Shown piece by piece: positions 4,226 through 33,506 of a stretch of DNA of 64,000 nucleotides. The notes under the pieces are model-generated. The model had not been told where the DNA came from, made no database searches, and saw nothing but the letters and a program-made list of their open reading frames with translations. The stretch covers positions 1-64,000 of the forward strand of contig NZ_JAUOPN010000006.1 in the NCBI RefSeq assembly GCF_030547005.1, given 5' to 3'. Positions within the stretch are counted from its first letter, which is position 1, and each line of letters starts with the position of its first letter. Both the position numbers and the translations under genes were made by a program. The DNA comes from Maribacter sp. 1_MG-2023. Lineage in GTDB: Bacteria; Bacteroidota; Bacteroidia; Flavobacteriales; Flavobacteriaceae.

Positions 4226-4269
4226 GTGACAAATGTCATTTTTATTAAAGTTCAAATAGCGAACCTTTG
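4226..4269 (+). promoter_or_regulatory. Crp/Fnr-type site plus -7 element upstream of the porin gene
   Basis: GTGAC-AAAT-GTCAT at 4226-4239 is a near-perfect palindrome of the Crp/Fnr type. Exactly 22 nt further on lies AACCTTTG (4262-4269), seven of eight positions of the Bacteroidetes -7 element TAnnTTTG. The palindrome centre would sit near -41, the class II activator position. The same spacing is found at three other promoters in this window (nap, terB-like, usp). Start codon follows at 4296. Confidence 0.6.
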
Positions 4270-4295
4270 TTGCCAAATATGTTAAATCAACTATT

Positions 4296-5588
4296 ATGAC
4301 CATACAAAGATCTCATATAGGTATTCTATTTCTACTTATTTTCAACGTTATCCCTATAACAGCACAAACCCTAGAAGTAGATGCAGATTTAAGAGCACGC
4401 TTTGAATATCGCCACGGATTTAACAACCTCTTCCCTAATGATGCCGATCCAGCTGCATTTGTAAACCAACGTACGCGTCTTAATATTGGGTATACTGAGG
4501 AAAAATTAAAGCTATTTATTGCTGTACAAGATGTGAGTACTTGGGGAGATACCCGACAGGTATTATCGGTAGATGGTAATGATTCTTTCTTTTTGTTTCA
4601 AGCTTGGGCCCAATTAAAGTTCAATGAAAATTGGGCCACCAAATTAGGTAGACAAGTAATTTCTTATGATGATCAACGTATTTTTGGTGGCCTGGACTGG
4701 GCAATGCAAGGACGCTTTCACGATGCTGCAATCATAAGCTATAAGAAAGATGAATTCATGCTTGACCTAGGTGGAGCCTTCAGCCAAGAATCCACTCAAA
4801 ACGAAGGAACAGCATATAATATTCAAGGTTTTTTTACTTATAAATCTATGCAGTATGCCTATCTAAAGCAATCATGGCAGAAAAGTTCTGTGAGTTTTCT
4901 TTTTCTAAACACAGGTTTTCAAGATTTTACAGGTGATGCTAATGATATTGCAGACGGCGTTTCTTATAGACAAACTACAGGTTCTTACTTTAAATTTCCT
5001 ATTCAAAACATAGATTTAGCTGGTAGTGCCTATTATCAATTTGGAAAAGCAAATGCAACAACAGATTTAGCTGCCTATCAATTGGCTTTAGAGGCTACTT
5101 ATAAATCTAATAAAATTCTTTACGGATTAGGTATTGAACTTTTAAGCGGAACAGACCAAAACGGTGACTCAAAAAATAAATCGTTTTTTCCTCTTTATGG
5201 CACAAATCACAAGTTTAATGGATTCATGGATTATTTTTATGTAGGTAACCATGCTAACAATGTTGGACTTAATGATGTGTACGGAAAAGTTGTTTTTACC
5301 ACAGGACAAAAATCAAACCTATTGCTCAAAGGTCATTATTTTAGCGCCAACGCAGATCTTACCGGTGATGCAGATGCTTATCTGGGAACAGAATTAGATT
5401 TGGTATTTACACAGGTCTTAATGAAAAATGTAAAATTAAATGTAGGTTATTCTCAAATGTTTGCTTCAAATAGTATGTCGCTAATAAAAGGCGGTAGACC
5501 AAGTGATAATACCAACAACTGGGGCTGGGTTCAGCTAACCATCAACCCAAATCTTGTTAAAACAAATTTGAGTAAAGCATCAAACTAA
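4296..5588 (+). CDS. Outer-membrane beta-barrel porin, alginate-export/OprO-like
   Basis: 430 residues with a cleavable signal peptide (hydrophobic core to about residue 22, ending ITAQ). The mature protein begins with the pattern LEVDADLRARFEYRHGF and NQRTRLNIGY typical of the alginate-export family of barrels, then alternating beta-strand segments to the C terminus. Proteins of this family act as passive channels for anionic solutes in the outer membrane; the substrate here is not shown by the sequence. It lies directly beside the nitrate reductase and molybdenum cofactor genes and shares with the nap operon a Crp/Fnr-type promoter at the same spacing, so a role in letting nitrate or another oxyanion into the periplasm is a reasonable inference. 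A strong terminator follows at 5615. Confidence 0.75.
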   Translation: MTIQRSHIGILFLLIFNVIPITAQTLEVDADLRARFEYRHGFNNLFPNDADPAAFVNQRTRLNIGYTEEKLKLFIAVQDVSTWGDTRQVLSVDGNDSFFLFQAWAQLKFNENWATKLGRQVISYDDQRIFGGLDWAMQGRFHDAAIISYKKDEFMLDLGGAFSQESTQNEGTAYNIQGFFTYKSMQYAYLKQSWQKSSVSFLFLNTGFQDFTGDANDIADGVSYRQTTGSYFKFPIQNIDLAGSAYYQFGKANATTDLAAYQLALEATYKSNKILYGLGIELLSGTDQNGDSKNKSFFPLYGTNHKFNGFMDYFYVGNHANNVGLNDVYGKVVFTTGQKSNLLLKGHYFSANADLTGDADAYLGTELDLVFTQVLMKNVKLNVGYSQMFASNSMSLIKGGRPSDNTNNWGWVQLTINPNLVKTNLSKASN

Positions 5589-5614
5589 GCATACAACTAC
5601 CTCAACATGGTAAA

Positions 5615-5645
5615 GCTGCAATCCAAAAGATTGCAGCATATTTTA
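5615..5645 (+). terminator. Intrinsic terminator after the porin gene
   Basis: GCTGCAATC and GATTGCAGC form a perfect 9-bp stem around a five-base loop (5615-5637), followed by ATATTTTAT. It stands 27 bp after the porin stop codon and also blocks read-through into the oppositely oriented moaA remnant. Confidence 0.8.
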
Positions 5646-6650: not shown

Positions 6651-6696
6651 ATGATTAATTATTTACTTTCCATTGAAAGGATTGATCTTCAAAAAT

Positions 6697-7095: not shown

Positions 7096-7113
7096 GGGTC
7101 TAATTCTAGTTCT

Positions 7114-7476: not shown

Positions 7477-7486
7477 AACAAACAGT

Positions 7487-8668
7487 TTATTTAGTGGGCA
7501 GTAATATGGTTTTTACATTTTGACCTTTTTTAATTTCTGTAGAGTTTTTAGGTAAACAAACCAGTGCATTGGCATCTCCAAAAGCACGTATCATAGCAGA
7601 ACTCTGTCCTCCTAAAATCATAATTCCGGCATCTTCTATTCGCGCTTTTAGAAATTGTGCTTGAGTTCCTTTTACCGAATAGTCAGATAACAAAGGCAAA
7701 AAAATACTTGGTAGTTTCATATGTTCTGCACCTTCGTACTTCTTTAAAAGAGGATACACATAAATATAGAAACAACTAAGCGCAGCGGCAGGATTACCGG
7801 GGAGTCCAAATATTGATGTTCCTTCCTTCATTCCAAAAAATAGTGGTTTTCCGGGCTTTTGTTTCACCTTATAAAAAATCTCTTGTACGCCAATAGCATT
7901 AAATGCTTTTCCAACATAGTCATAATCTCCTACTGATACACCACCTGTAACAATTACAATATCATGTCTTTTGATGGCAGCTTTTAATACATTTTTTGTT
8001 TTATCATAATCGTCCTTAATAATGAGAACCAAGGTATTTTTATAACCTAATTCTTTTAACACAGCGGTTAGCATAGCGCCATTAGATTCGTAGATCTCAC
8101 CATAACACAACTTAGCACCTGGACTTACAAGTTCGTTACCCGTAACTAAAATGGCTATTGACGGCTTTTCACAAACCGTAATTTTAGTAACACCCAAACT
8201 GGCCAAAAATCCTATATGAACTCCCTTAATTGTAGTTCCTTTGTTCATGGCAATACCACCTGCTTTAATTTGCTCTCCTTGGGGCCTGATGTTCGTATTC
8301 ACAATTAGAGATTCTTCAATGGTAATTTTACTGCCATCTACGATTACCTTTTCTTGCATTACAACCGTGTTTGCTGTAACGGGCACTGGAGCTCCCGTAA
8401 AAATGCGCACAGCTTCTCCCTTATTTAAAGTTAGATTGTTATTATCACCTGCCTTTACTTCACCTACGATAGTGTAAAAAACATCATCTCCTATATGTAA
8501 AGCATAACCGTCCATAGCAGATTGCCTAAAAGGAGGCATATCTATTTCTGAAATTACATCTTTGGCCAGAACATAATCTAGTCCATCACTAAGGTCAACT
8601 TCAAGAAATTTCGTATTAATGGAGCCATGTAATAAAACCAATTCTATGGCTGTAGTGGTATCTATCAT
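7487..8668 (-). CDS. moeA: MoeA, molybdopterin molybdenumtransferase
   Basis: 393 residues, full length for MoeA, which inserts molybdate into adenylylated molybdopterin. Seen: the N-terminal PPFRQSAMDGYAL motif, VRIFTGAPVP with QEKV, a central MPT-binding domain with ILVTGNELVSPG, YESNGAMLTA and VTGGVSVGDYDY, then KPGKPLFFG and IFGLPGNPAAALSCF, and a C-terminal beta domain. It is intact, unlike moaA further along the same operon, so cofactor insertion could still be done if molybdopterin is made from genes elsewhere. It is the first gene of the leftward operon; the promoter region between it and napD carries a palindrome shared by both directions. Confidence 0.93.
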   Translation of the reverse strand: MIDTTTAIELVLLHGSINTKFLEVDLSDGLDYVLAKDVISEIDMPPFRQSAMDGYALHIGDDVFYTIVGEVKAGDNNNLTLNKGEAVRIFTGAPVPVTANTVVMQEKVIVDGSKITIEESLIVNTNIRPQGEQIKAGGIAMNKGTTIKGVHIGFLASLGVTKITVCEKPSIAILVTGNELVSPGAKLCYGEIYESNGAMLTAVLKELGYKNTLVLIIKDDYDKTKNVLKAAIKRHDIVIVTGGVSVGDYDYVGKAFNAIGVQEIFYKVKQKPGKPLFFGMKEGTSIFGLPGNPAAALSCFYIYVYPLLKKYEGAEHMKLPSIFLPLLSDYSVKGTQAQFLKARIEDAGIMILGGQSSAMIRAFGDANALVCLPKNSTEIKKGQNVKTILLPTK

Positions 8669-8825
8669 TAGACTTGTGTTATACTTGCTTTAAATCTTAT
8701 TATGTAAACATTTAAAACCTAATTCAATTTTAAAATCAATATTTTTTCTAAAAAAATATTAGTTGTGCCCTTGTAATAAGTATCAATTTCAAGAAATGAT
8801 GAACACAAAAATCGTTATTTCCATT

Positions 8826-8900
8826 CAAATATAACGAGTGATTTATTACGATTTCTATGATATTAATCATCTTTTTAAACACTATGCTTTACTATTTTTA
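8826..8900. promoter_or_regulatory. Divergent nap/moeA promoter with one Crp/Fnr-type palindrome
   Basis: ATGAT-ATTA-ATCAT at 8857-8870 is a perfect palindrome like an Fnr box. On the plus strand TATTTTTA (8893-8900), seven of eight positions of TAnnTTTG, begins 22 nt after it, facing napD. On the minus strand a perfect element, TATATTTG, occupies 8833 to 8826, 23 nt from the palindrome, facing moeA. One bound activator could therefore switch both operons. The rest of the 295-bp gap is AT-rich and shows nothing else I can name. Confidence 0.65.
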
Positions 8901-8963
8901 TTAAATTGTTAAACAACTGTTAAAGAAAATTAATAGTTCTCACCCTTAAATGACCGACCAAAA

Positions 8964-9197
8964 ATGCCCATTAAAAGTTATCTAGCTCACCCTATCGCAG
9001 GAAGAAAAGAAGAATTAATGACCGCATTAGTTACTCTTGGACAATGCGAAGTTATTCCTGCTGAGAACCAAAACATTTTGGCATTGGTTACCGATACCCA
9101 AAACGAAAAAGAAGACGAAATACTAAAAGAAAAAATTGAAGCCCTAAGCAGTCTAAAATTACTTGCCTTAGTTTCTGGTTTTAACACCTCTCAATAA
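8964..9197 (+). CDS. napD: NapD-like chaperone for nitrate reductase maturation
   Basis: 77 residues, the size of NapD. NapD proteins are ferredoxin-fold cytoplasmic chaperones that bind the Tat signal peptide of NapA and hold back export until the molybdenum cofactor is in. The start MPIKSYLAHP, the centre NILALVTDT and the LLALVSGF end fit the short beta-alpha-beta pattern of the family. It is the first gene of the rightward nap operon, 11 bp before napA, which supports the call more than the short sequence alone. The Crp/Fnr-type promoter lies about 65 bp upstream. Confidence 0.85.
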   Translation: MPIKSYLAHPIAGRKEELMTALVTLGQCEVIPAENQNILALVTDTQNEKEDEILKEKIEALSSLKLLALVSGFNTSQ

Positions 9198-9208: not shown

Positions 9209-11536
9209 ATGTACGATTCTGTAACAAATAGAAGGAGTTTTATAAAAAAAATGGCAATGTTGTCTGCAATTACAGCGGCTGCATCTATGTTTCCAGGTAT
9301 TGTATTTGCCAGGGAACAAGAAAAAGGAATTCCTGAAAATGCAAAACTAGATTGGAAAAAAGGTCCGTGTAGATTCTGCGGCGTAGGTTGTGGCATACTT
9401 GTAGGTACTGAAAACGGAAAAGCTGTTGCGGTAAAAGGTGATCCAAACTCGGCAGTGAATAAAGGGTTATTATGTGTAAAAGGATACCACCAGATTATGT
9501 GTATTCAATCTAAAGACAGACTTGAAACAGCCTTAGTAAAGAAAAATGGAAAATACGTAGAAACCCCATTAAGTGAAGCTTTAGATCTAGTTGCCTCTAA
9601 GATGAAAGAATCAATTTCGCAGAACGGTAAAGATTCTGTAGCCATGTATACTTCCGGCCAGTCTACCATACCAGAAGGCTATATTGCTTCTAAATTTATG
9701 AAAGGAGCTATTGGAACCAATAATCTAGATTGTAATGCACGCCTTTGTATGGCAAGTGCCGTTACAGGGTTCTTAACCTCTTTTGGGGCAGATGAGCCTA
9801 TGGGTTGTTATGAAGATATTGATCACGCAGATTATTTTGTTACCTGGGGTAATAATATGGCAGAAATGCACCCGGTGTTATTCTCTAGAATGTTGGAACA
9901 AAAAACGAAACGTGGTGCTAAAATTATAGATTTTGCTACACGAACTACACGTTCTAGTACGGCATCTGATAGGTCTATCTTATTTGAACCGCAGACAGAC
10001 TTAGCGGTGGCTAATGCTATTTGTTATGAGATCATAAAAAACGGTTGGGTAAATAAATCCTTTGTTGAGAAGCATTGTAGCTTTAGTAAAGGTCTTACCA
10101 ATATTGGTTACGGTTTAGAAGACAAGTTTAAGTTTACTGATAAGCCAGAGAAAATAGATTTTGAATCTTATAAAGAATTTCTAAAAGATTATAGTCCAGA
10201 GAAAGTATCTAAATATTCTAAGGTATCGGTTAAGGACATTAAATATCTAGCGGCTATTTATGGTGACCCCAATAAAAAAGTAGTATCCTACTGGTGTATG
10301 GGAATGAACCAACACACTAGAGGAACATGGATGAACAATCTTGTTTACAACATTCATTTACTTACAGGTAAAATTTCACAACCTGGCAACGGGCCCTTTT
10401 CATTAACAGGGCAGCCATCTGCTTGCGGTACCGCTCGTGAGGTGGGAACCTTTACACACAAACTACCACACGGTTTAGTAGTGAATAAGAAAGATAGAGA
10501 AATGGCAGCTAAAATTTGGAAAGTTCCTGTAGAGCGTATTCCATCTAAACCTACCTATCATGCCACTGAAATGTTCCGAGCTGTAGATCGTGGAGATATT
10601 AATTTTATATGGGTACAAGCTACCAACCCTTTAGTTTCATTACCTAAGACCAGCCGTTACCGACCAGCAATGGAAAAGAAATCTTGTTTTGTTGTTGTTT
10701 CAGATGTATTCCCTACACCTACTACAGATGTAGCAGATGTTATTTTGCCGGCCGCTTGGCACATAGAAAAAGGTGGACTTTATGGTAATTCTGAGCGAAG
10801 AACACAGTATTGGCAGAAAATGGTTGATGCTCCAGGAGATGCAACACCAGATACTTGGATGTTTATTGAAGTAGCAAGACGAATGGGGTTTGAGGGCCTA
10901 TTCCCTTATAGCAAAGAAAATCACGTAGAAGAAATATATTACGAATACAGACAATTTCATGAAGGTGCAGAACACAGTATGGCACCACTTGAAGTTTTAA
11001 AGAAAGAGTCTGGGGTTATATGGCCTTATGTAAACGGCAAGTCTACTCAATGGCGTTATAATGCAAAATATGACCCCGCTTGTTCAAATGATGAAGACTT
11101 CCATTTTTATGGTAAACCAGATGGTAGAGCCGTAATCTGGCAACGTCCTTTTGAAGATGCACCAGAGAAACCAAATCAAGAATATCCATTCTGGTTAAAT
11201 ACAGGGCGAGTTGTAGAACACTGGCATACAGGATCTATGACACGTAGAATTCCAGTACTACATCAAGCAATGCCTAATGCTTATGTAGAGTTTCACCCAG
11301 ATGATGCGAAAGCTTTAGGAATTAGGAACGGAGAAAACATTAAAGTAAGCTCTCGCCGTGGTTCTTGCACCTTACCAGCATCTATTAATGAGAGAGGTTT
11401 ACCAACCAAAGGGCAAGTATTCGTTCCTTTCTTTGATGAAAATATGTTAATTAATGATGTAACCTTAGACTCGTTCTGCCCTATTTCTAAAGAACCAGAC
11501 TATAAAAAATGCGCGGTTAAAGTAGAAAGAGCATAG
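9209..11536 (+). CDS. napA: NapA, periplasmic nitrate reductase catalytic subunit
   Basis: 775 residues of the molybdopterin bis-MGD oxidoreductase family; it reduces nitrate to nitrite in the periplasm. A Tat signal is present at the N terminus (NRRSFIKKMA, hydrophobic stretch to about residue 34). A [4Fe-4S] motif follows with cysteines near residues 54, 57, 61 and 89 (CRFCGVGC ... GLLCVKG). The molybdenum-ligating cysteine is in CNARLCMAS at about residue 180. Later parts include the MGMNQHTRGTW and QPSACGTAREVG segments and the C-terminal cap (GRVVEHWHTGSMTRR) of NapA. No premature stop or frameshift is seen. It needs bis-MGD cofactor, yet moaA beside it is broken, so moaA function must come from another copy if NapA is active. 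Confidence 0.96.
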   Translation: MYDSVTNRRSFIKKMAMLSAITAAASMFPGIVFAREQEKGIPENAKLDWKKGPCRFCGVGCGILVGTENGKAVAVKGDPNSAVNKGLLCVKGYHQIMCIQSKDRLETALVKKNGKYVETPLSEALDLVASKMKESISQNGKDSVAMYTSGQSTIPEGYIASKFMKGAIGTNNLDCNARLCMASAVTGFLTSFGADEPMGCYEDIDHADYFVTWGNNMAEMHPVLFSRMLEQKTKRGAKIIDFATRTTRSSTASDRSILFEPQTDLAVANAICYEIIKNGWVNKSFVEKHCSFSKGLTNIGYGLEDKFKFTDKPEKIDFESYKEFLKDYSPEKVSKYSKVSVKDIKYLAAIYGDPNKKVVSYWCMGMNQHTRGTWMNNLVYNIHLLTGKISQPGNGPFSLTGQPSACGTAREVGTFTHKLPHGLVVNKKDREMAAKIWKVPVERIPSKPTYHATEMFRAVDRGDINFIWVQATNPLVSLPKTSRYRPAMEKKSCFVVVSDVFPTPTTDVADVILPAAWHIEKGGLYGNSERRTQYWQKMVDAPGDATPDTWMFIEVARRMGFEGLFPYSKENHVEEIYYEYRQFHEGAEHSMAPLEVLKKESGVIWPYVNGKSTQWRYNAKYDPACSNDEDFHFYGKPDGRAVIWQRPFEDAPEKPNQEYPFWLNTGRVVEHWHTGSMTRRIPVLHQAMPNAYVEFHPDDAKALGIRNGENIKVSSRRGSCTLPASINERGLPTKGQVFVPFFDENMLINDVTLDSFCPISKEPDYKKCAVKVERA

Positions 11537-11539
11537 ATT

Positions 11540-12256
11540 ATGAAAAAGAGACTTGGAATCATATCGTTTTTTGTCATAATCTTCATAGCGTTTATCGTTG
11601 TTTGGAACTATAGCTATGAACAAGGGTTAGAAGAAGCTTATATACCCATTATCGAAACACCAACAGGAAATTTCATTCCCTCAGAAAGTGGTGTTTTTAG
11701 ACGATTTGATGATGCAGGTATAGATTATCTAAATATGCCTGTAGATGAAAATCATCAACGAACGTTAGATACATATTATGATAATAGAGCATATCCAGGT
11801 GCTCCACCTAGTATTCCTCACCCGGTAATAAAAGAGCGAAGTTTTGGAGGCAATACCTGTATACAATGTCATCAAAATGGCGGATTTGTAGAAAAATTTA
11901 ATGCCTATGCCCCTGTTACACCGCATCCAGAGATGATAAACTGTCGACAGTGCCACGTTACTAAGAACACAACTAGTAATTTTATAGAAAATGGCTTTGA
12001 AAAACCAGAACCACCAAAAGTAGGTGAAGGAGCAAACAATGCATTAGTAGGAAGCCCGCCAATGATACCACATCAATTACAGATGAGAGAAAGTTGTATT
12101 TCTTGTCACGGAGGACCAAGTGCCCCTAAAGAAATAAGAGTTTCGCACCCAGACCGGATCAATTGTAGACAATGCCATTTACCAAAGCAAACTGAGCAAC
12201 CAAATATTGATACGAATACATTTTTAAGACAATTCGAAAAATTAAATGAAAAATAG
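11540..12256 (+). CDS. NapB-like cytochrome c with four haem motifs
   Basis: 238 residues, anchored by one N-terminal hydrophobic helix (about residues 5-22). Four CxxCH haem sites are seen near residues 107, 135, 186 and 209. The C-terminal half (PPMIPHQLQMRES, CISCHGG, SHPDRINCRQCH) is the classical diheme NapB unit, the electron donor to NapA. The N-terminal half repeats the same plan (PPSIPHPVIKERSF, CIQCHQNGG, PHPEMINCRQCH), so the protein appears to be an internal duplication giving a tetraheme NapB. NapB is usually diheme and soluble or anchored. It starts 3 bp after the napA stop and overlaps the next cytochrome gene by 11 bp, so the three are translated together. Confidence 0.85.
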   Translation: MKKRLGIISFFVIIFIAFIVVWNYSYEQGLEEAYIPIIETPTGNFIPSESGVFRRFDDAGIDYLNMPVDENHQRTLDTYYDNRAYPGAPPSIPHPVIKERSFGGNTCIQCHQNGGFVEKFNAYAPVTPHPEMINCRQCHVTKNTTSNFIENGFEKPEPPKVGEGANNALVGSPPMIPHQLQMRESCISCHGGPSAPKEIRVSHPDRINCRQCHLPKQTEQPNIDTNTFLRQFEKLNEK

Positions 12257-12878
12257 AACGCTAATATATCTTGTAGTATTACTTCTAGGGGGTACCTTAA
12301 TTTCTTGCAAAGAAAAAGAAGGAGAATACCACTCCATATCCGATAAAATAGAAGCAGAAAGTAAACCATACCACGGTAACCTGACCTCAGATGAGTTATT
12401 AGTTGATACAGAACTAATAAAAATTACCGAAGGGGAAAATACCTTTCTAATTCCAGAACGAAAAAGTCAAATAAAATCATTTGCCTGTATCGAATGTCAT
12501 AGTAAACCGTTATCTGAAATGGCAGGTACAGACATACAAAAAGCACATTGGGATATTAAACTGAGCCATGCAAATGGCGATGCCATGAACTGTGCAACCT
12601 GTCATAACGGTTCGAATATGAACAATCTAAACAGTTTAACAGGTAAAGACATTGATTTCAACTTAAGTTATAAAATTTGTTCGCAATGCCATTCTAATCA
12701 GTTTGAAGATTGGAAAGGTGGCGCTCACGGTAAAAAAGTAGCTGGATGGGCTCCGCCCCGAGCATCTAATACCTGTGTAAACTGTCATAATCCACACAGT
12801 CCAAGTTTTGAAAAAAGATGGCCCGTACAATTCAATACAAAAACGGCTATAGAACGTAACGAAGGTTTAGATCATTAA
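12246..12878 (+). CDS. Tetraheme c-type cytochrome lipoprotein of the nap operon
   Basis: 210 residues. A lipoprotein signal ends with LISC, putting the lipid-bearing cysteine at about residue 21. Four CxxCH motifs lie near residues 81, 116, 145 and 177, the last followed by NPHSPSFEKRWP. The arrangement is that of small multihaem electron carriers of the cytochrome c3/NrfB type rather than NapC. By position between napB and the iron-sulfur subunit it most likely passes electrons from the membrane-bound ferredoxin/NrfD-like module to the NapB-like protein. The start overlaps napB by 11 bp. I do not know a gene symbol for it. Confidence 0.8.
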   Translation: MKNRTLIYLVVLLLGGTLISCKEKEGEYHSISDKIEAESKPYHGNLTSDELLVDTELIKITEGENTFLIPERKSQIKSFACIECHSKPLSEMAGTDIQKAHWDIKLSHANGDAMNCATCHNGSNMNNLNSLTGKDIDFNLSYKICSQCHSNQFEDWKGGAHGKKVAGWAPPRASNTCVNCHNPHSPSFEKRWPVQFNTKTAIERNEGLDH

Positions 12879-12888
12879 ACATAAAGGT

Positions 12889-14016: not shown

Positions 14017-14060
14017 CACGTATAGTGTTTATTAAAAGAAAGCACATAAATCGAAACGTT

Positions 14061-14081
14061 CAGAATATATTAAAAATTCTG
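14061..14081. repeat. Small inverted repeat between the ferredoxin and NrfD-like genes
   Basis: CAGAAT and ATTCTG are separated by nine bases in the 91-bp gap before the NrfD-like gene. It is weak and without a T-run; it could be an RNA processing or stabilising hairpin, or nothing. Confidence 0.3.
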
Positions 14082-14107
14082 TAGCGGTTGGTTTAAAATA
14101 ATATAAA

Positions 14108-24758: not shown

Positions 24759-26047
24759 GTTCGTTAAGAGACATAGTTTACACAAGTTAAAGATTAGGGT
24801 TTACACTAAATTAGTTTCTAACCTTGTAGATTCTTGTTTGTTTCTTAGGTTTCTTTGATCAAAGAAACCTAAAAATACATTTCTGTAAAAGACTTTCCAA
24901 ATGCCGTTACCTATATCCTCTATAGCTACATATTTTCCTTTCAGAGCTGCCGATACATATACCCAATAATATGATTTCCATCTTACAGCACCACTTTCGG
25001 TTACTTTAAGAACTTTATACTTGGTATCATAGTCAAAGTTTGGTATTCTTTCCGGAAAAGGTCTGGTAGAAAAGTCATGTATATCAGCTGGTGTTTTCAT
25101 CTCTAATGCTTCATGTGGCCTTATGTTATTATACTCTTTTACAAAATGATTTAATCGACGCTGTTGTGCCTTTAAATCAAATGCAGATGGTTTAGCGCAG
25201 GCCGCTTTCAGATCACGGTGCATACGTTCATGTCTTCCATTTTGTTGCGGACTGGCAGGGTCCGAAAACACAGGAGAAATACCAAGTTCAATAAACCAAT
25301 AAGATAGTTGAGTAAATCTTTGAATGGCCCTGACCGAACCAAAAGGACTTCCATTGTCCGTATGTATTTGTTTAGGAATGCCATATATTCTAAAAACCCT
25401 TTTAAATTCAGCCTTGGCAGATTTTAGATTTTCTTTATAGTGACCTTTGGCTGTGAACAAGAATCGGCTTCTAGAGTCAGCAATAGTAAGTGGGTGACAA
25501 TAGATTTTATTGCCCATTAAGAACTTACCTTTATAATCTGTACTCCACACTTCATTACAGGATTGAGGGTCAAAAATAGGGTGTACCGGTTTTACTCTTC
25601 TCATCCTTTTTTGAGGACATACTAAACCGTTCCTTTTAAGAATGTTATGAACCGTAACCACCGAAGGAACTTCTTGGGCTGTAAATTCTTTAAACAATAA
25701 TTCTCTTATTTTCTTAGCTCCCCAAAGCTTGTATTTCTTTTTTAATTTTAAAATACTTTCAACGATATTCTCCTTGGTTGCATTTGGGTATTTTCCAGGA
25801 GCTCTAGAGTGTTGTTTTAGTCCTTCAAATCCTTGATTTTCAAATCTGCTTATTAATTTATAAGCAGTAGGTCGAGAGATTTTAAAACTTTTACATAATT
25901 CCGTTATGGTATACTTTCCTGTACGCCATTCACAAATAAATTCGATTTTTTGTTCCATTATTGTTGTTACTTTCCAAGGCATGATAATTTGATTTTCATC
26001 TCAAATTAACTCCTAAAAAAGTGTAAACGATGTGCCTTTAACGTACC
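24759..26047 (-). mobile_element. IS481-family insertion sequence, about 1.29 kb
   Basis: The element is flanked by the direct repeat CAGAT (24754-24758 and 26048-26052), the target-site duplication; the uninterrupted gene has one CAGAT at this place. Terminal inverted repeats are imperfect over about 25 bp: inward from the left GTTCGTTAAGAGACATAG then TTTACAC; inward from the right GTACGTTAAAGGCACATCG then TTTACAC. One transposase gene lies on the minus strand. Ends may shift by one base because of shared T and C. Confidence 0.9.
24801..25982 (-). CDS. IS481-family transposase
   Basis: 393 residues, intact. N-terminal helix-turn-helix region (YTITELCKSFKISRPTAYKL), a second HTH-like part (KKYKLWGAKKIRELL), then an integrase core with the acidic triad seen in VWSTDYKGKF (D), IHTDNGSPFG (D) and QQNGRHERMHRD (E). 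The C-terminal part carries NIRPHEALEMKTPAD. It catalyses cut or copy of the element ends. Start ATG at 25982; a second ATG at 25958 is possible. As the gene is uninterrupted and the target duplication is perfect, the element is probably recent and still mobile. Confidence 0.92.
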   Translation of the reverse strand: MPWKVTTIMEQKIEFICEWRTGKYTITELCKSFKISRPTAYKLISRFENQGFEGLKQHSRAPGKYPNATKENIVESILKLKKKYKLWGAKKIRELLFKEFTAQEVPSVVTVHNILKRNGLVCPQKRMRRVKPVHPIFDPQSCNEVWSTDYKGKFLMGNKIYCHPLTIADSRSRFLFTAKGHYKENLKSAKAEFKRVFRIYGIPKQIHTDNGSPFGSVRAIQRFTQLSYWFIELGISPVFSDPASPQQNGRHERMHRDLKAACAKPSAFDLKAQQRRLNHFVKEYNNIRPHEALEMKTPADIHDFSTRPFPERIPNFDYDTKYKVLKVTESGAVRWKSYYWVYVSAALKGKYVAIEDIGNGIWKVFYRNVFLGFFDQRNLRNKQESTRLETNLV

Positions 26048-26178: not shown

Positions 26179-26994
26179 ATGAAATTTAAAATAGCTACCC
26201 TGCTGGTATTTAGTATTATAATAACTTCTTGCAAAGGCGAACAGATTGTTAAAAAAGAAACTATCAAAACTCCTGAATTTACAAACAAGGGGCAAGAATT
26301 GGTTTCAAAAATGCTTGAAAAAGTTGGCGACTATAAAACGCTTCGAACTAAAAAAGATGTCGTTTACACATATACTTACCAAACTCCCGATAGCAAAACA
26401 GATATCTCAACAGAGAAATACATTTTCGATGGTGAATTATCTTATGGAAAATACGAACAACATCAAAGAACCTTAAGTGACTTACAGGGCACAATTGAAC
26501 AAGGTTATGATGGTAAAGAATTCTGGTTAAAACATAACGGTAAAATACTAAATGATAGCATTGCCTTAAAACGAGTTGCGTTTAACAGACCTACTAATTT
26601 TTATTGGTTTACCATGTTTCAAAAACTAATGGACCAAGGAGTTGCTTATGAGTACATTGGTGAAAAAATAATTGACAGTTTAACCTATGACGTGGTTAAA
26701 GTATCTTTCAATTTTGGAGACGCTAATCCTACAGATATTTATCAGCTTTACATTAATAAGAACACAGCTCTTGTTGATCAATTTCTATTCACTGTAGCAG
26801 ACTTTGGTGCAATGGAAACTCCAAATTTAATGAGCTTAGAATATGAAGATGTTGACGGAATGCTTTTCCCTACTAAGCGAAAATATAAGAAATCTACTTG
26901 GGAAGCCGAAGTTAACGATGCACCATGGATAACTGTTAATTGGTCTAACATAAAATTCAATAACGGATTAAAAAGAACTGAATTTGAAAAATAA
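26179..26994 (+). CDS. DUF6503-like lipoprotein
   Basis: 271 residues. Lipoprotein signal with IITSC, cysteine at about residue 18. The mature part resembles the LolA/LolB-like beta-barrel-half fold found in DUF6503 proteins of Bacteroidetes: KDVVYTYTYQTPD, KEFWLKHNGK, YEYIGEKIIDSLTYDVVKV, and a closing VNWSNIKFNNGL. Such proteins may bind lipids or act in outer-membrane assembly; not shown. It lies 22 bp after the end of the split dehydrogenase gene, so the inserted element may also cut its supply of transcript from upstream. Confidence 0.7.
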   Translation: MKFKIATLLVFSIIITSCKGEQIVKKETIKTPEFTNKGQELVSKMLEKVGDYKTLRTKKDVVYTYTYQTPDSKTDISTEKYIFDGELSYGKYEQHQRTLSDLQGTIEQGYDGKEFWLKHNGKILNDSIALKRVAFNRPTNFYWFTMFQKLMDQGVAYEYIGEKIIDSLTYDVVKVSFNFGDANPTDIYQLYINKNTALVDQFLFTVADFGAMETPNLMSLEYEDVDGMLFPTKRKYKKSTWEAEVNDAPWITVNWSNIKFNNGLKRTEFEK

Positions 26995-27194: not shown

Positions 27195-28922
27195 ATGTCA
27201 GTAAACAAAGACTACTCCACGTTTGAAAACTTAAACGAAGAACAATTACCTGTTTCAAAACATAAGCTACATGATTGGACCCATTTTGCAGGCTTATATG
27301 CTGCAGAACACGTAGCAGCTACAGAGTTTGTGATTGGCGCTACGTTTGTAGCACTTGGTGCAAAAACAATGGACATTATTCTTGGTCTATTAATCGGTAA
27401 TATTTTAGCAGTACTAAGCTGGACACTTATTACCTCTCCTATTGCTGTAGAAACAAGATTAAGTTTATATACTTACTTAAATAAAATTGCAGGAGATTCT
27501 ATGACCAAGCTTTATAATTGGGCTAACGTCATTATTTTCTCTGTAATATCGGCAGCCATGATTACCGTTTCTTCAACTGCCGTTCGATTTGCTTTCGATA
27601 TACCCGCACAATTAAACTGGTACCCCACAAATTTGTGGTTTGTACTCATTGTATTCTTAGTTGGTGTAGTTGTCGTATCAATTGCGTTATACGGATTTAA
27701 TGCTGTATCAGAATTTTCAGGCATATGTGCCCCTTGGTTATTCGTAATGTTCACCAGTGGCGCAATGGTTTTACTACCTGCTCTTTCTTTAGATGTTTTA
27801 GGAACAACATTACCAAACGGTTGGAACGATTTAATATCGCTCGGAGATCAATCTATATGGACAGGAGTTGATAGTGCCGGCGAACCCGGCATTGGTCTTA
27901 TAGAAGTCATAGGTTTTGCATGGGCGGCAAATTCAATAACACATTTTGGTTTGATCGATATGGCGTTATTACGTTTTGCCAAAAAGAAATCTTACGCTCT
28001 AGCGACTAGTACAGGTATGATGTTTGGGCATTATGTTGCATGGATTGCTGCAGGTATTATGGGAGCCGGTGCTGCTGTAATAATAGGCAAAACAATAGTT
28101 GAACTTGATCCGGGCGATGTTGCATTTTACGCGTTAGGTTGGTCTGGTTTCGTAATCGTAATCGTAGCAGGCTGGACAACAGCAATTACTAATTTATATA
28201 GAGCGGGCCTTGCAGCACAAGCCATTTTTTATAATCATTCACGTAAAAAGACAACTATTGTTGTTGGTTTAATCACTATTGCCATAGCCTGTTTCCCATT
28301 TGTTTTTTCACAGATTTTACCCTTATTAACCTATGCAGGTTTATTGGTAGTACCCGTTGGTGCAATTGTATTTGCAGAGCATCAAATATTCCCAAGGATC
28401 GGATACACACGCTATTGGTCTCAATACCGAAATTTAACGTTTAGTACACCCGCTATTGTTTCATGGGGGTTAGGATTGGTTTTCGGTTTTGGACTAAATG
28501 CTTTTAATGTAATGTCTTTCTTCTATTTGTTTATTCCAACATGGATTTTCACTATCGGAGTTTATACTTTGTTAGCTGGTCGCTACGGAGCAAAAGAGAA
28601 ATATCCTGAGGCGGAAGAACAAGAAAGAATACGCAATGAAAAAATTGTCGATTTTCAAGAAGAAAAAAGCAAATTAGAAACAACACCAAAGAAAGATACT
28701 ACCGTATTCTCAAAGATTTTGAAGTTGGTATCTCTTGTTGCCCTTATAATTACGTTGATATTGGCAGGTATTGTTTTATTCGACAGCGCAAATGAGAATA
28801 GCTATATCAACAATAGAGAACTATTTTATACGTATGCATTTATTTGTACGATTGCTTATTTCGTTACTGCATACTGGGCATTATTACGTGTAAAATCAAT
28901 AAACAAAGCTAAAAATGAATAA
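27195..28922 (+). CDS. NCS1-like (purine/cytosine permease family) membrane transporter
   Basis: 575 residues with about 12 helices in the first 480 residues, then a charged stretch (EAEEQERIRNEKIVDF) and two more helices at the end. The early part (VAATEFVIGATFVALGAKTMDIILG is one helix; LIGNILAVLSW the next) fits the NCS1 nucleobase-cation symporter fold. It overlaps the next gene, a mannitol-dehydrogenase-family enzyme, by 8 bp, so the two are translated together. This makes a polyol or sugar acid a better guess for the substrate than a nucleobase, but this is inference. A 200-bp AT-rich leader precedes it, with CTTTG-containing promoter-like sequence near 27154. Confidence 0.75.
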   Translation: MSVNKDYSTFENLNEEQLPVSKHKLHDWTHFAGLYAAEHVAATEFVIGATFVALGAKTMDIILGLLIGNILAVLSWTLITSPIAVETRLSLYTYLNKIAGDSMTKLYNWANVIIFSVISAAMITVSSTAVRFAFDIPAQLNWYPTNLWFVLIVFLVGVVVVSIALYGFNAVSEFSGICAPWLFVMFTSGAMVLLPALSLDVLGTTLPNGWNDLISLGDQSIWTGVDSAGEPGIGLIEVIGFAWAANSITHFGLIDMALLRFAKKKSYALATSTGMMFGHYVAWIAAGIMGAGAAVIIGKTIVELDPGDVAFYALGWSGFVIVIVAGWTTAITNLYRAGLAAQAIFYNHSRKKTTIVVGLITIAIACFPFVFSQILPLLTYAGLLVVPVGAIVFAEHQIFPRIGYTRYWSQYRNLTFSTPAIVSWGLGLVFGFGLNAFNVMSFFYLFIPTWIFTIGVYTLLAGRYGAKEKYPEAEEQERIRNEKIVDFQEEKSKLETTPKKDTTVFSKILKLVSLVALIITLILAGIVLFDSANENSYINNRELFYTYAFICTIAYFVTAYWALLRVKSINKAKNE

Positions 28923-30396
28923 AGAAATCATGTTGAACAAAGAGAATTTAGCAACGTTAAGCAAGCAAGTTCCAATTCCTACATTTGATAGAAAATCTCT
29001 AAAGGCAGGAATTGTGCATGTTGGTGTTGGTGGTTTTCATAGAGCACACGAAGCATATTACACGCACCTCTTACAAGAAAAAGAAGGTGCATCTGATTGG
29101 GGAATTTGTGGTATTGGTCTAAGAAAAGGAGATCAAAAAATTCATGATGTTCTTCAAAAACAAGACGGACTTTACACACTCATTATAAAGCATCCTGATG
29201 GTAAAATAGATTCACAAATAATTGGCTCCATTATCGACTTTAAACTTGGTCATGACACTCCCGATGTAGTTATTGACCAAATGGCACATCCTGATACCAA
29301 AATAGTTTCCTTGACCATTACAGAAGGTGGTTATAATTTTAATTCGTCAACGGGTGAATTTGATTTTGAAAATACAGATGTACAGCACGAATTACAACAT
29401 CCAAACAGCCCTAGAACCATTTACGGATTTTTAACTGCTGCCATTAAGAAAAGAAGAGCGTCAGGCTTATCTCCTTTTACTGTAATGTCTTGTGACAACA
29501 TTGAACACAATGGTGATGTTACCAGAAAGATGCTACTTGCTTTCGCAAACAGACAAGATAAAGAACTGGCTGCATATATCGAAAAGGAAGTCTGTTTTCC
29601 AAATAGCATGGTAGATCGTATTACACCTGTCACCACACCTTCGGACATTGAATATTTAGAGAGTACATATGGTTTAAAAGACGAATGGCCTGTAACATGT
29701 GAGCCTTTTATTCAATGGGTAATTGAAGATAATTTTTCTAACGGCAGACCAGAATTTGAAAAAGTTGGCGTGCAGTTTGTTCCAGATGTTAAGCCGTATG
29801 AAAAAATGAAACTTCGTTTATTAAATGCAGGTCATTCTGTACTTGGGCTTTTAGGCGCTATTCATGGTCACCCAACGATAAATGCCTGTATGGAAGACGA
29901 GGTATTCGTTACCTATTTAAGAGCGTTCATGGATCAAGAAGCTACACCGGTTTTAGACCAATTAGAAGGCATAGATTTAACGGCATACAAAGACAGTTTA
30001 CAAGAACGTTTTGCGAACCCTAATATTAAAGATAGCGTAAGCCGAATCTGCTCTGAGAGTTCTGCAAAATTGCCAAAATTCTTAATTGCTACCATTCAAG
30101 ATAATATAGCGAATGGTGGAAGCATTACCTACGCAACTTTAGTTATTGCGGCATGGTGCTATTACAGTGACAAGGGAATTGATAAAAATGGAAACGCTAT
30201 TGAAATCATTGATGCCATGCAAGATCAACTGCATGTGACAGCAAGCAAAACAGAAACTGATCCTTTAGCCTTTATTAGACTAGAATCATTATTTGGAAAC
30301 TTAATAAATGAAGAAAAATTCACCAAACTGTATAGCAAAATGGTTCAGGAAATATACAAAGATACTGACATTAAGAAACTGATGAAACAAGCTTAA
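28915..30396 (+). CDS. Mannitol dehydrogenase-family NAD-dependent oxidoreductase
   Basis: 493 residues, full length for the long-chain mannitol 2-dehydrogenase / fructuronate reductase family. The nucleotide-binding start reads IVHVGVGGFHRAHEAYYT (about 33-50); VMSCDNIEHNG and VDRITPVTTP follow; the catalytic region is YEKMKLRLLNAGHSVLG with the conserved lysine, asparagine and histidine. It oxidises a polyol (mannitol, arabinitol) or reduces a keto-sugar acid in the cytoplasm. It overlaps the NCS1-like permease gene by 8 bp; the permease likely brings in its substrate. Which polyol cannot be told. Confidence 0.87.
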   Translation: MNKEIMLNKENLATLSKQVPIPTFDRKSLKAGIVHVGVGGFHRAHEAYYTHLLQEKEGASDWGICGIGLRKGDQKIHDVLQKQDGLYTLIIKHPDGKIDSQIIGSIIDFKLGHDTPDVVIDQMAHPDTKIVSLTITEGGYNFNSSTGEFDFENTDVQHELQHPNSPRTIYGFLTAAIKKRRASGLSPFTVMSCDNIEHNGDVTRKMLLAFANRQDKELAAYIEKEVCFPNSMVDRITPVTTPSDIEYLESTYGLKDEWPVTCEPFIQWVIEDNFSNGRPEFEKVGVQFVPDVKPYEKMKLRLLNAGHSVLGLLGAIHGHPTINACMEDEVFVTYLRAFMDQEATPVLDQLEGIDLTAYKDSLQERFANPNIKDSVSRICSESSAKLPKFLIATIQDNIANGGSITYATLVIAAWCYYSDKGIDKNGNAIEIIDAMQDQLHVTASKTETDPLAFIRLESLFGNLINEEKFTKLYSKMVQEIYKDTDIKKLMKQA

Positions 30397-30794
30397 TTTA
30401 ATAGTAGTTCTATTTTAGCTAATAACATTAACTCAGACTTATTATTACCTGAGAATGAACTTGCAATAGCCTTGGCCGTCTTTTTGGTCAAGGTTTTTAT
30501 TTTATCTGAAAATGCATGTGGGTGAATTTTGTAAAATTCCTTGAACTCATCAAAACACTCTTTGCTATCTTTTTCAGACTCCATTAAAACATCAAACACA
30601 ATTTCAATTTGATTAGCTGCATCGGTACCATAACGGTCGGTAAAATCATCAATATACAGCCAATCTTCTTTTACATACTCCTTAACTTTTTCCCATTCAT
30701 TGTTATGCACAGTACCATCACTTATGGCAACGGCATAGAACAGTTTTCCTAAATTTTCATAGAGTCCGTTCATTGTTTTCGCAGTATTTTCCAT
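30393..30794 (-). CDS. TerB-like cytoplasmic protein
   Basis: From the ATG at 30794 the product is about 133 residues (an upstream in-frame start at 30902 would place the start inside the promoter and give an unlikely N terminus). It is an all-helical, acidic-metal-site type protein of the TerB/tellurite resistance-like family: NLGKLFYAVAISDGTVHNNEW is cut here as the first helices with an acidic pocket, and IKTLTKKTAKAIASSF the last. Function is not known in detail. Its stop overlaps the end of the dehydrogenase gene by 4 bp, tail to tail. Its promoter region, shared with the histidine kinase gene, contains a Crp/Fnr-type site at the spacing used by the nap and usp promoters. Confidence 0.65.
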   Translation of the reverse strand: MENTAKTMNGLYENLGKLFYAVAISDGTVHNNEWEKVKEYVKEDWLYIDDFTDRYGTDAANQIEIVFDVLMESEKDSKECFDEFKEFYKIHPHAFSDKIKTLTKKTAKAIASSFSGNNKSELMLLAKIELLLN

Positions 30795-30821
30795 TTTATC
30801 TTGTTTTAGCTGAATACCTAG

Positions 30822-30865
30822 TAAAAATATGAAGTAGGATATAATTTTAATATGACAAAAATCAG
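30822..30865 (-). promoter_or_regulatory. Crp/Fnr-type site plus -7 element upstream of the TerB-like gene
   Basis: On the minus strand CTGAT-TTTT-GTCAT (30865 to 30852) precedes TATTTTTA (30829 to 30822), identical to the nap -7 element, by exactly 22 nt. The predicted start point is about 22 nt before the ATG at 30794. The palindrome lies just upstream of the kinase promoter facing the other way. Confidence 0.6.
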
Positions 30866-30875
30866 TAGTAATCGA

Positions 30876-30883
30876 TATATTTG
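30876..30883 (+). promoter_or_regulatory. -7 element TATATTTG of the kinase-regulator operon
   Basis: A perfect TAnnTTTG ends only 4 nt before the kinase ATG at 30888, so transcription may start at or next to the start codon (leaderless mRNA). The Crp/Fnr-type palindrome at 30852-30865 covers the -33 region, where a bound protein would repress. Confidence 0.5.
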
Positions 30884-30887
30884 ATAT

Positions 30888-32399
30888 ATGCGGGATTTTC
30901 AAAAAAATAGTGACATATTCAATTTACTTTCGGAAGGTGTTTCAGAAGGTATTATCGTTGTAAATGCCGATCAAATTATTGTAGCTACAAATACCTCGTC
31001 TCTACAAATGTTTGGGTACGAAAAAGGCGAACTAATTGGCAAGCCTTTAGATATTCTAATTCCTAGTAGATACCATGCCGGTCATGATGCCCATGTAGAT
31101 AATTTTATCGCAAAGAGCGATAAACGCCAAATGGGGCATGGAAGAAATCTATATGGCATATGTAAAGACGGAAAAGAGTTTCCTGTCGAGGCAGGTTTAA
31201 ATCCGTTTGAATTCTATGGCGCTACCTATGTAATGGCATTGGTAATCAATATTACAGAACGTAAGAATAGAGAGGAAGAATTAAGCCACTGGGCACGTAT
31301 TTTTGATGAATCGCTGAATGAAATTTTTATTTTCGATGCCGATACGTTTAAGTTTTTAAATATAAATAAAGAAGCGCAAAGAAATATAGGGTATTCATTT
31401 GAAGAGTTATACAGAATGACTCCGGTAGATATTAAACCAGATATGGATATTTCTGAATTTAATACATTGATAGCTCCATTAGTTAATGATGAAACCGCAA
31501 AAGTAAAGTTCGAAACCAGACATGGAAGAAAAGACGGAACTTCGTACCCAGTTGAAGTACATCTACAACTATCGAAACTGGGAAAAGAAAAAGTATTTGT
31601 TGCCTTTATTCTAGATATCACAGAGAGAAAAAATTATACAGAAAACTTAGAAAAAATAGTAGAAGAACGTACCCATCAACTAACAGAAGCGCTCGCTGTT
31701 GAAAAAGAACTGAACGAACTTAAAACGCGTTTCTTATCATTAGTATCACATGAATTTAAAACACCTTTAAGCAGTATACTAACGTCTATCACCTTACTCG
31801 GTAAATATACCGAAACAGACCAACAGCCAAAAAGAGATAAGCACGTAACCACTATTAAGAATAAGGTAAAATATTTAGATACCATACTTAATGATTTTCT
31901 ATCTGTAGAACGATTAGAATCCGGTAAGGTGAATTATAAAATCGAAGAATTTCCGCTTAGTAAAACAGTTAATGAGGTTGTATATAACGCAAACATGTTA
32001 CTTAAATCTGGTCAACAAATACGTTACCCAGAAAACATTGACGAATTAAATATACAATTCGATGAAAAGACCTTAGAATTGGCGCTATCCAATTTAATAC
32101 ATAATGCTATCAAGTACTCTCCAGAAGATTCCACCATTAATATAAAAGTTGACATAAAAGATACAGGTTATGCCATTAGCGTCATTGATGAAGGCATTGG
32201 TATACCAGAAGAAGAGCAAAAACACATATTTAATCGTTATTTTAGAGCAGAGAACGCTTTATTGACCCAAGGCACCGGCATTGGTTTAAATATTGCAAAA
32301 CAACATATAGAAAACTTAGGTGGCAGTCTTGAGTTTTCAAGTGCAGAAAGTAAAGGGTCAACATTCACCCTAAGTATACCTAAACTAAAAATCAACTAG
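30888..32399 (+). CDS. Cytoplasmic PAS-PAS histidine kinase, FixL-like first PAS
   Basis: 503 residues without membrane helices. PAS 1 (about 8-125) contains LIPSRYHAGHDAHVDNF and MGHGRNLYGICKDGKEFPVE; by eye, histidine 66 aligns with the haem-binding histidine of FixL and arginine 86 with its distal arginine. Many haem-free PAS domains share part of this pattern. PAS 2 (about 130-248) is followed by a short coiled coil, the phosphoacceptor helix LVSHEFKTPLSS (histidine about 288), and an ATPase domain with NLIHNAIKYSP, DEGIGIPEE and GTGIGLNIAKQ. It autophosphorylates and should pass phosphate to the receiver-Crp protein encoded 3 bp downstream. Oxygen or redox sensing is inferred. Confidence 0.88.
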   Translation: MRDFQKNSDIFNLLSEGVSEGIIVVNADQIIVATNTSSLQMFGYEKGELIGKPLDILIPSRYHAGHDAHVDNFIAKSDKRQMGHGRNLYGICKDGKEFPVEAGLNPFEFYGATYVMALVINITERKNREEELSHWARIFDESLNEIFIFDADTFKFLNINKEAQRNIGYSFEELYRMTPVDIKPDMDISEFNTLIAPLVNDETAKVKFETRHGRKDGTSYPVEVHLQLSKLGKEKVFVAFILDITERKNYTENLEKIVEERTHQLTEALAVEKELNELKTRFLSLVSHEFKTPLSSILTSITLLGKYTETDQQPKRDKHVTTIKNKVKYLDTILNDFLSVERLESGKVNYKIEEFPLSKTVNEVVYNANMLLKSGQQIRYPENIDELNIQFDEKTLELALSNLIHNAIKYSPEDSTINIKVDIKDTGYAISVIDEGIGIPEEEQKHIFNRYFRAENALLTQGTGIGLNIAKQHIENLGGSLEFSSAESKGSTFTLSIPKLKIN

Positions 32400-32402
32400 A
32401 AG

Positions 32403-33455
32403 ATGAAAAGAATTTTATTGATTGAGGACGATAAAGCCTTACGAGAGAATACAGAAGAACTTTTAGAATTAGCGGGTTACACAGTTATGACGGCATCTAA
32501 TGGAAAAATAGGTATTTCAGCTGCAATTGAAAATTTACCTAACATTATCATTTGCGATATTATGATGCCCGAGGTTGATGGTTATGGTGTACTTGAAAAT
32601 CTTTCCAGTAATAAAAAAACGAAGCACATACCATTCATTTTTCTATCTGCAAAAACCGAGCATAAAGAAATTAGAAAAGGTATGGACCTTGGGGCAGATG
32701 ACTACCTAACCAAGCCCTTTGATGAAGAAGATTTAATGAGTGCGGTAGAGAGTAGATTAGCCAAAGCTGAGCTTTTGTTACGTATGCAAGATGAAACTTC
32801 AAAAGAACACGGCGTTTCTGAAAATGAAATGCGAACCATTCATGAACTTAAAAACTTCTTTGATGATAATGGCGAGGTGGTAAATTTCAAGCAAGGAGAA
32901 AATATTTATGAAGAAGATAACCGTTCTAACAAAATTTATCTTGTTTTAAAAGGACTTGTAAAATGCTACAATATGGATCCCGACGGAAAAGAGCTGATTA
33001 CATCTTTAGCTAAGGCAGATGACTTTTTAGGCTTCACCTCTTTTTTAAACAATGTACCCTATCAAGAATCTGCTACAGCATTAGAGGATGTTGAATTAGC
33101 GGGTATTTCGAAAGAAAACTTAAAAGAAATACTTAACGAAAACAAGACCATTTCTATGGAGCTTATGGAGCTTTTATCTGCAAATATTTCTAACATAAAA
33201 GCTCAGTTATTACAAATGGCCTATAGTTCTGTACGCAGAAAAACAGCACAAACCTTGTTACAATTTGCCGATGTTATGAATACAAAACCATATGAGCCCA
33301 TTAGAATTTCACGTAATGATCTTGCCAGTGTGGCAGGTATAGCGACCGAAAGTTTAATACGCACATTATCTGGTTTTAAAAAAGAAGGCCTCATTACTAT
33401 CGAAGGTCGCAACATTCAAATCATTGAAATAAAAGCATTACAATATGTAAATTAG
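32403..33455 (+). CDS. Response regulator: receiver domain fused to a Crp/Fnr-type transcription factor
   Basis: 350 residues. Residues 1-118 form a receiver (LLIEDD, phosphoacceptor aspartate about 52 in CDIMMPEVDGYG, KPFDEEDL with lysine 104). After a linker, residues about 145-265 form a cyclic-nucleotide-binding-type beta roll (FKQGENIYEE, KIYLVLKGLVKCY, GKELITSLAKADDFLGF), then a dimer helix and a winged HTH (ISRNDLASVAGIATESLIRTL). The recognition helix has E and R at the spacing used by CRP and FNR (E-S-L-I-R) to read TGA/TCA half-sites. There is no cysteine set for a sensory Fe-S cluster, so phosphorylation probably controls it. It follows the kinase by 3 bp and precedes a usp gene that has a matching site; it is the candidate regulator of the four related promoters. 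Confidence 0.88.
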   Translation: MKRILLIEDDKALRENTEELLELAGYTVMTASNGKIGISAAIENLPNIIICDIMMPEVDGYGVLENLSSNKKTKHIPFIFLSAKTEHKEIRKGMDLGADDYLTKPFDEEDLMSAVESRLAKAELLLRMQDETSKEHGVSENEMRTIHELKNFFDDNGEVVNFKQGENIYEEDNRSNKIYLVLKGLVKCYNMDPDGKELITSLAKADDFLGFTSFLNNVPYQESATALEDVELAGISKENLKEILNENKTISMELMELLSANISNIKAQLLQMAYSSVRRKTAQTLLQFADVMNTKPYEPIRISRNDLASVAGIATESLIRTLSGFKKEGLITIEGRNIQIIEIKALQYVN

Positions 33456-33462
33456 ACGATAT

Positions 33463-33506
33463 CTGATAAATATCATTTATCACGTTTCATCAACCATTTA
33501 CTTTTG
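33463..33506 (+). promoter_or_regulatory. Crp/Fnr-type site plus perfect -7 element upstream of the usp gene
   Basis: CTGAT-AAAT-ATCAT (33463-33476), then 22 nt, then TACTTTTG (33499-33506), a perfect TAnnTTTG. The gene starts at 33524. The site begins 8 bp after the stop codon of the receiver-Crp gene. Confidence 0.7.

Follow-up and report, generated by a model that had tools for sequence, protein, structure and literature searches.

Class II activation by CRP and FNR in Escherichia coli proceeds from a site centred at −41.5 relative to the transcription start. To our knowledge, the promoter of the Bacteroidota is unusual and activator positions on such promoters have been little mapped. In Flavobacterium psychrophilum the TAnnTTTG box was placed at −12 to −5, and expression of the cbb3 oxidase and heme-synthesis genes increases when oxygen is limiting (PMC9723704). 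Alphaproteobacteria have boxes common to FnrN and FixL-FixJ-FixK, and in Caulobacterales FixK replaced FnrN (PMC4999443); in Rhizobium leguminosarum the hFixL and FnrN branches work at different O2 levels (PMC7888657). Here we describe Crp/Fnr-type palindromes that stand at one fixed distance from TAnnTTTG-like −7 elements in Maribacter sp. 1_MG-2023 (Flavobacteriaceae), and two regulators that may both read them, an FNR-like protein and a fusion of a receiver domain with a Crp-type regulator (REC-Crp). The starting point was the first 64,000 nucleotides of contig NZ_JAUOPN010000006.1 (assembly GCF_030547005.1), from here on the window (C42:1-64000 in our numbering of this genome, G000, of 4.27 Mb in 45 contigs), in which an original prediction, made from the letters alone, had seen four such promoters.

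Spacing of palindromes and −7 elements

Base-by-base reading confirmed the letters and spacings of all four boxes, each of which lies 22 nt 5′ of a TAnnTTTG-like −7 element (22 nt counted after TCAT is gap 23 counted after TCA, the count used below). The box GTGAC-AAAT-GTCAT (4226-4239, plus strand) precedes an outer-membrane channel gene and is followed by AACCTTTG (4262-4269, plus strand, one mismatch). ATGAT-ATTA-ATCAT (8857-8870), common to nap on the plus and moeA on the minus strand, is followed on the nap side by TATTTTTA (8893-8900, plus strand). CTGAT-TTTT-GTCAT (30852-30865, minus strand) precedes an open reading frame (ORF) of 133 amino acids, divergent from a kinase gene, and has the −7 element TATTTTTA at 30822-30829 (minus strand). 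CTGAT-AAAT-ATCAT (33463-33476, plus strand), with TACTTTTG at 33499-33506 (plus strand), precedes the gene of a universal stress protein (usp). The −7 elements had been said to match seven or eight of the eight TAnnTTTG positions; the usp element is the perfect one and the other three carry one mismatch each. The four promoters thus stood as listed, and the list lacked a fifth: TATATTTG (8826-8833, minus strand) faces moeA at gap 24 after the TCA of the nap box.

The Maribacter starts are predicted from the F. psychrophilum map, in which the −7 element occupies −12 to −5 (PMC9723704); a spacing of 22 nt then puts the 14-bp palindrome at −48 to −35 and its centre at −41.5. A TGA-N6-TCA palindrome at a fixed distance from the −7 element is what characterizes class II sites, and by this reckoning the Maribacter boxes are at the predicted position of a class II activator.

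The exact word TGAY-N4-RTCAT occurs at five distinct places in the window, with that at 8857 reading on both strands. The fifth, at 20706-20718 inside an ORF of 155 amino acids, has no −7 element with one mismatch or less at gaps 14-30. Given a window background of 0.0109 for such an element, the probability that at least four of five boxes have one at a given gap is 7e-8, or about 1e-6 once the choice from 17 gaps is allowed for. Taken without the −7 element and with up to one mismatch allowed, the box occurs 68 times in the window as compared with a mean of 61 in shuffles, which is no enrichment. Since the box alone is at chance level there, it is the spacing that carries the evidence, as had been argued from the start.

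A search of the whole genome, proposed with the original prediction, for TGAY-N4-RTCA followed after 22-24 nt by TAnnTTTR gave 27 matches versus 2 for the backward pattern; 23 of the 27 are at exactly gap 23. When the gap was varied from 8 to 38 with the TAnnTTTG form, 9 of 22 matches fell at gap 23. The regulon had been called local, which it is not: the window holds four of the 27 matches, from three boxes (the mismatch in its −7 element keeps the porin site out of the 27), and 13 lie on contig C2, the densest. We took the 23 sites at gap 23 as the strict set. Set aside were C9:66077 (gap 24, inside a frame of 782 amino acids), C23:284773 (gap 24) and C41:16805 (gap 22, preceding a ferredoxin-reductase-like gene); C42:8826 (gap 24), the moeA site, was kept apart as a separate member.

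By family search the genes behind the strict sites encode five universal stress (Usp) proteins, HemN, CcoS then CcoN, a rhodanese/metallo-beta-lactamase protein, a DnaJ, an OsmC and a YtxH protein, a pyridine nucleotide-disulphide oxidoreductase and a pyridoxamine-oxidase-like protein; further strict sites precede the gene of the FNR-like regulator, nap, the 133-amino-acid ORF of the window and some genes to which no name was given. Two strict-site ORFs (L013 and L018) were without a match in the Pfam search. Such a list is too broad for a regulon mainly for nitrate (the original prediction had spoken of an anaerobic/nitrate regulon); cbb3 oxidase and hemN under the box are a feature of FNR/FixK regulons. 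On C2 (78739-86644, L010-L012) three Usp genes follow one another within 5 kb, with a strict site before each.

Downstream of 17 of the 23 strict sites the longest ORF starts 4-26 nt past the −7 element. Between box and −7 element every column has 0.39 bits or less, except the T that completes TCAT, and consequently there is no conserved −33 element, whose role is probably taken over by the activator.

The TAnnTTTG form at gap 23 was found in 162 of 395 genomes drawn from the phylum and in all 41 of those from the same family, the Flavobacteriaceae. The 41 genomes contain 343 such sites as compared with 177 at ten off-gaps (26-35), or 17.7 per gap, which is a 19.4-fold enrichment; every genome exceeds its own off-gap mean. 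This is far from the chance rate that would have spoken against a regulon. The backward pattern gave 8 sites in the same genomes; the box word read backward is some nine times less frequent than the forward one (84 versus 744 in the REC-Crp loci), which makes this too lenient a control that understates the background, and it was dropped as the main control in favour of the off-gap counts. The 80 loci around REC-Crp have 229 sites at gap 23, whereas gaps 18, 20, 26 and 28 average 0.75 (related loci not collapsed); with the TAnnTTTG form and repeats collapsed there were 104 at gap 23 versus 43 over 40 other gaps. Two genomes of the same phylum from outside the class (G271 and G306, family f47) have 28 and 30 gap-23 sites with 0 in the backward control of each, which suggests that a large regulon with this spacing also exists at a great distance from Flavobacteriaceae.

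Conservation in orthologous promoters and genes of the window

The usp promoter behind REC-Crp carries the full site in 58 of 80 loci, and although 22-24 nt were allowed, all 58 are at gap 23; the backward and the other-strand controls gave 0/80 each. For nap and the porin we compared the 30 best-scoring loci each, from 37 NapA-bearing and 84 porin-bearing genomes of 199. A site with at most one mismatch was found before nap in 22 of 30 loci (17 at gap 23, 4 at 22 and 1 at 24; one of the 22, at −624, is probably spurious) and before the porin in 16 of 30 (15 at gap 23), versus 0/30 in each backward control. Beside the kinase gene, 39 of 73 loci carry a site that points away from it (38 at gap 23, one at 22). 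This comparison with relatives, of a kind also proposed at the outset, together with the palindrome and the genome-wide spacing, bears out a real regulon of fixed geometry with an Fnr-type class II activator as its predicted regulator.

Where moeA is in reach of nap, 11 of 16 loci have a site facing it, all 11 at gap 24 (centre −42.5); 8 of these share the nap box and 3 use a second box. Among nap loci without moeA, 1 of 14 has such a site, at gap 23. By its sequence and conservation, the moeA promoter is thus assigned to the regulon as a further member, the fifth promoter of the window. A site facing the kinase was found in 11 of 73 loci (8 of them at gap 24); activation of the kinase gene through the shared box, considered as a candidate, is weak when these 11 are set against the 39 facing away. 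Two-way promoters appear to have gap 23 on one side and mostly 24 on the other (moeA 11/11, kinase side 8/11), corresponding to −41.5 and −42.5.

The channel gene, termed porin in the original prediction, encodes an outer-membrane beta-barrel of 430 amino acids (4296-5588, plus strand; PF13372, Alginate_exp). The product of moeA (7487-8668, minus strand, 393 amino acids) is molybdopterin molybdotransferase-like, with MoeA as best NCBIfam model, below its equivalog cut-off. The nap operon (9209-15340, plus strand) has five genes, for NapA (9209-11536), NapB (11540-12256), a multiheme c-type cytochrome (12246-12878), a 4Fe-4S protein (12889-14016) and an NrfD-like protein (14108-15340), all on the plus strand. 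It is preceded by an ORF of 77 amino acids (8964-9197, plus strand) without a Pfam match, which from position and reading we take to be NapD-like. The 133-amino-acid ORF (30393-30794, minus strand) had been labelled terB-like, but neither Pfam nor NCBIfam gave it a match at E 0.001. The Usp protein (33524-34360, plus strand, 278 amino acids) belongs to PF00582. Between the nap and REC-Crp regions lies an integrase-core transposase (rve, IS481-type zipper; 24801-25982, minus strand), and two ORFs of the window, 27195-28922 (575 amino acids) and 26179-26994 (271 amino acids), are without a Pfam match at E 0.001.

Two candidate readers of the box

The genome encodes 13 proteins with a cyclic nucleotide (cNMP)-binding domain, and the recognition helix ATESLIR is found in two of them: the FNR-like protein on C2 and REC-Crp. 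The latter, a probable reader of the box, is encoded in the window itself and had gone unnoticed.

The FNR-like protein (L131, C2:8916-9602; orthologues L132-L160) has as closest sequence in the PDB an FNR of Aliivibrio fischeri (4.3e-23), followed by a Crp/Fnr protein of Porphyromonas gingivalis, which is also the top fold match of the structural model (predicted local distance difference test, pLDDT, 81.7). C5, C8, C54 and C107 are invariant in 30 of 30 orthologues; C5, C8 and C107 align with cysteines of A. fischeri FNR, and C54 may be a substitute cluster ligand. The protein is probably an iron-sulfur oxygen sensor with C5, C8, C54 and C107 as ligands. Its gene has its own strict site; autoregulation of fnr as a general rule is not supported, with a site in only 8 of 30 FNR loci. 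A second FNR-like paralogue (L028, C41:177689-177943) has an N-terminal CxxCx4C, a later cysteine and the helix EEQVIR.

REC-Crp (32403-33455, plus strand, 350 amino acids) unites receiver, cNMP and Crp helix-turn-helix domains in one protein (PF00072, PF00027 and PF13545, all over cut-off), and its closest named relative is the REC-Crp of Maribacter spongiicola (96% identical). Directly 5′ of it in 73 of 80 loci is a kinase ORF (several of the other 7 loci end at a contig edge), and of the 77 loci in which a following ORF was found, 74 have a Usp-like one. The sensor kinase of the window (30888-32399, plus strand, 503 amino acids) consists of two PAS stretches, HisKA and HATPase. Its first PAS is closest to the heme-PAS of FixL, the best PDB match by sequence (3.8e-13) and also for the structural model (pLDDT 76.9). 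H66 and R86 align with FixL positions that we take to be the heme histidine and the distal arginine; among 74 kinases H66 is kept in 67, R86 in 52 and both in 51. Like that of FixL, this PAS is probably a heme-binding domain. A sister-group relation of REC-Crp to FNR was considered and not adopted: each forms one side of a branch, but the node that unites the two with the VETVIR type is supported at 88/49.

The two proteins were then followed through the 41 family genomes (presence at E ≤ 1e-60, plus full length for REC-Crp). FNR without REC-Crp was found in 18, REC-Crp without FNR in 7, both in 16 and neither in 0; the site is enriched over off-gaps 15.7-fold with FNR only, 17.4-fold with REC-Crp only and 23.5-fold with both. 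Five of the REC-Crp-only genomes (G053, G130, G234, G355 and G367) together have 64 TAnnTTTR sites versus 2 in the backward control. Downstream genes were examined for 30 of these 64: G053, G355 and G367 each have a site before a ccoN and a hemN orthologue, and in G053, G130, G234 and G355 sites lie ahead of Usp-like genes. The single activator first envisaged is not supported by these results: the recognition helices of the two regulators are much alike, and the sites stay enriched where either one was not found. That the box is shared by two readers is well supported by these comparisons, not proven.

We therefore favour, at a probability of roughly 70%, a class II regulon of the FNR/FixK type in which the FNR-like protein and the kinase-controlled REC-Crp would read the same box. 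The active dimer would bind TGAY-N4-RTCA centred 41.5 bp 5′ of the start, help RNA polymerase on the TAnnTTTR promoter and so activate genes for low oxygen and stress, namely those of cbb3 oxidase, hemN, nap with moeA, Usp and the outer-membrane channel. One reader would be the FNR-like protein, as probable iron-sulfur oxygen sensor, and the other the REC-Crp of the window, phosphorylated by the neighbouring kinase; in effect a FixL-like kinase would act on a merged FixJ-FixK in parallel with FNR. The sites, their fixed spacing, their spread through genome and family and the conservation of the promoters are direct results of the computation; binding and sensing by the two regulators we infer from their sequences.

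Several findings weigh against this reading. The 7 REC-Crp-only genomes amount to 4 genera; of the REC-Crp-only genomes, G088 and G312 retain an FNR-like protein that is 31% identical, and G053, G355 and G367 have a Crp protein with a VETVIR helix. The PAS domains of LOV photoreceptors also match the kinase PAS model, R86 varies in 22 of 74 kinases, the FixJ and FixK NCBIfam models match REC-Crp below their cut-offs, and 6 of 23 REC-Crp rows carry the helix TSPETVSR instead. In the FNR-like protein the third N-terminal FNR cysteine position is not a cysteine, and its best NCBIfam model, Fnr, scores 104.7 bits versus a cut-off of 228, which is why we call it FNR-like only; the 8 of 30 FNR loci with a site were counted with 1.5-kb flanks. 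Finally, the site is absent from 22 of 80 usp, 8 of 30 nap and 14 of 30 porin loci.

An alternative is that the FNR-like protein or its relatives alone read the box and REC-Crp uses another operator, merely adjoining a box-controlled usp. The FNR-like gene does have its own site on the densest contig, enrichment is kept in the 18 genomes with FNR and without full-length REC-Crp, and 5 of the 7 FNR-lacking genomes have another FNR-like or VETVIR Crp protein. We nevertheless consider this unlikely: G130 and G234 have neither, and yet 3 and 7 strict sites were counted in them and sites cluster around their REC-Crp; REC-Crp shares the helix, and in 58 of 80 loci it is followed by the box. Far less probable still is a cAMP-type or carbon-sensing (MalR-like) Crp regulator with class II sites and no oxygen response, an idea suggested by the assignment of Crp/Fnr proteins of one Flavobacteriales metagenome-assembled genome (MAG) to carbon sensing (PMC8510549); targets such as cbb3 oxidase, HemN, nap and moeA, the invariant cysteines of the FNR-like protein and a kinase PAS closest to FixL all argue against it. 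To a chance meeting of box words with AT-rich −7 words we give next to no credence. The chance level of the one-mismatch box in the window and the lenient backward control would fit it, but the off-gap control is free of that flaw, its counts do not equal the gap-23 count, and the site is kept in orthologous promoters.

Comparison with known systems

What we describe is a real regulon of a known kind; the wiring proposed for it would be a new variant. In titles and abstracts (subscription papers and preprints left aside) the regulon, its −7 spacing and the REC-Crp/FixL-like pair were not found described, which is not a claim of absence from print. With the fixed −41.5 box, promoters in many Flavobacteriaceae genomes can be predicted exactly and the predictions tested; the box also gives a handle on the response of marine Flavobacteriaceae to low oxygen and nitrate.

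With class II activation by CRP and FNR in E. coli the regulon shares the TGA-N6-TCA palindrome centred on −41.5; here, in contrast, the distance is measured to a TAnnTTTG −7 element and the starts are predicted. The sigma-A promoters of F. psychrophilum have the same −7 element, and cbb3 and heme genes rise at low oxygen; the main text of that study contains neither 'Crp' nor 'palindrom' (0 occurrences each), and its passages available to us give no activator site (PMC9723704). The target prediction for a Flavobacteriales MAG concerns the Crp/Fnr family in the same order, but in the parts available to us with a MalR matrix, a carbon-sensing reading and no −7 spacing (PMC8510549).

Closest are FnrN and FixL-FixJ-FixK of Alphaproteobacteria, where an iron-sulfur FNR and a FixL-controlled Crp/Fnr regulator share boxes with cco and hemN among the targets (PMC4999443, PMC7888657), and where one branch can replace the other, as in Caulobacterales (PMC4999443). 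In Maribacter, however, the receiver and the Crp-type regulator are one protein with a Crp helix-turn-helix, and there is no separate FixJ with its own fixK target; for this reason we do not file it as a member of FixL-FixJ-FixK, though it would work like it. The box is TGAY-N4-RTCA instead of TTGA..TCAA, the promoter is the TAnnTTTG promoter of Bacteroidota, and many targets are Usp genes. A low-oxygen circuit of Flavobacteriaceae with two inputs, in which a FixL-like heme kinase phosphorylates a merged FixJ-FixK, this protein and an FNR-like protein with altered Fe-S ligands both use the −41.5 box, and lineages lost either sensor and kept the operators, is a tentative proposal that we hold to be somewhat less probable than its opposite. 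If a merged FixJ-FixK and an FNR-like protein do share operators, dual oxygen sensing of the rhizobial kind would have an independent counterpart here.

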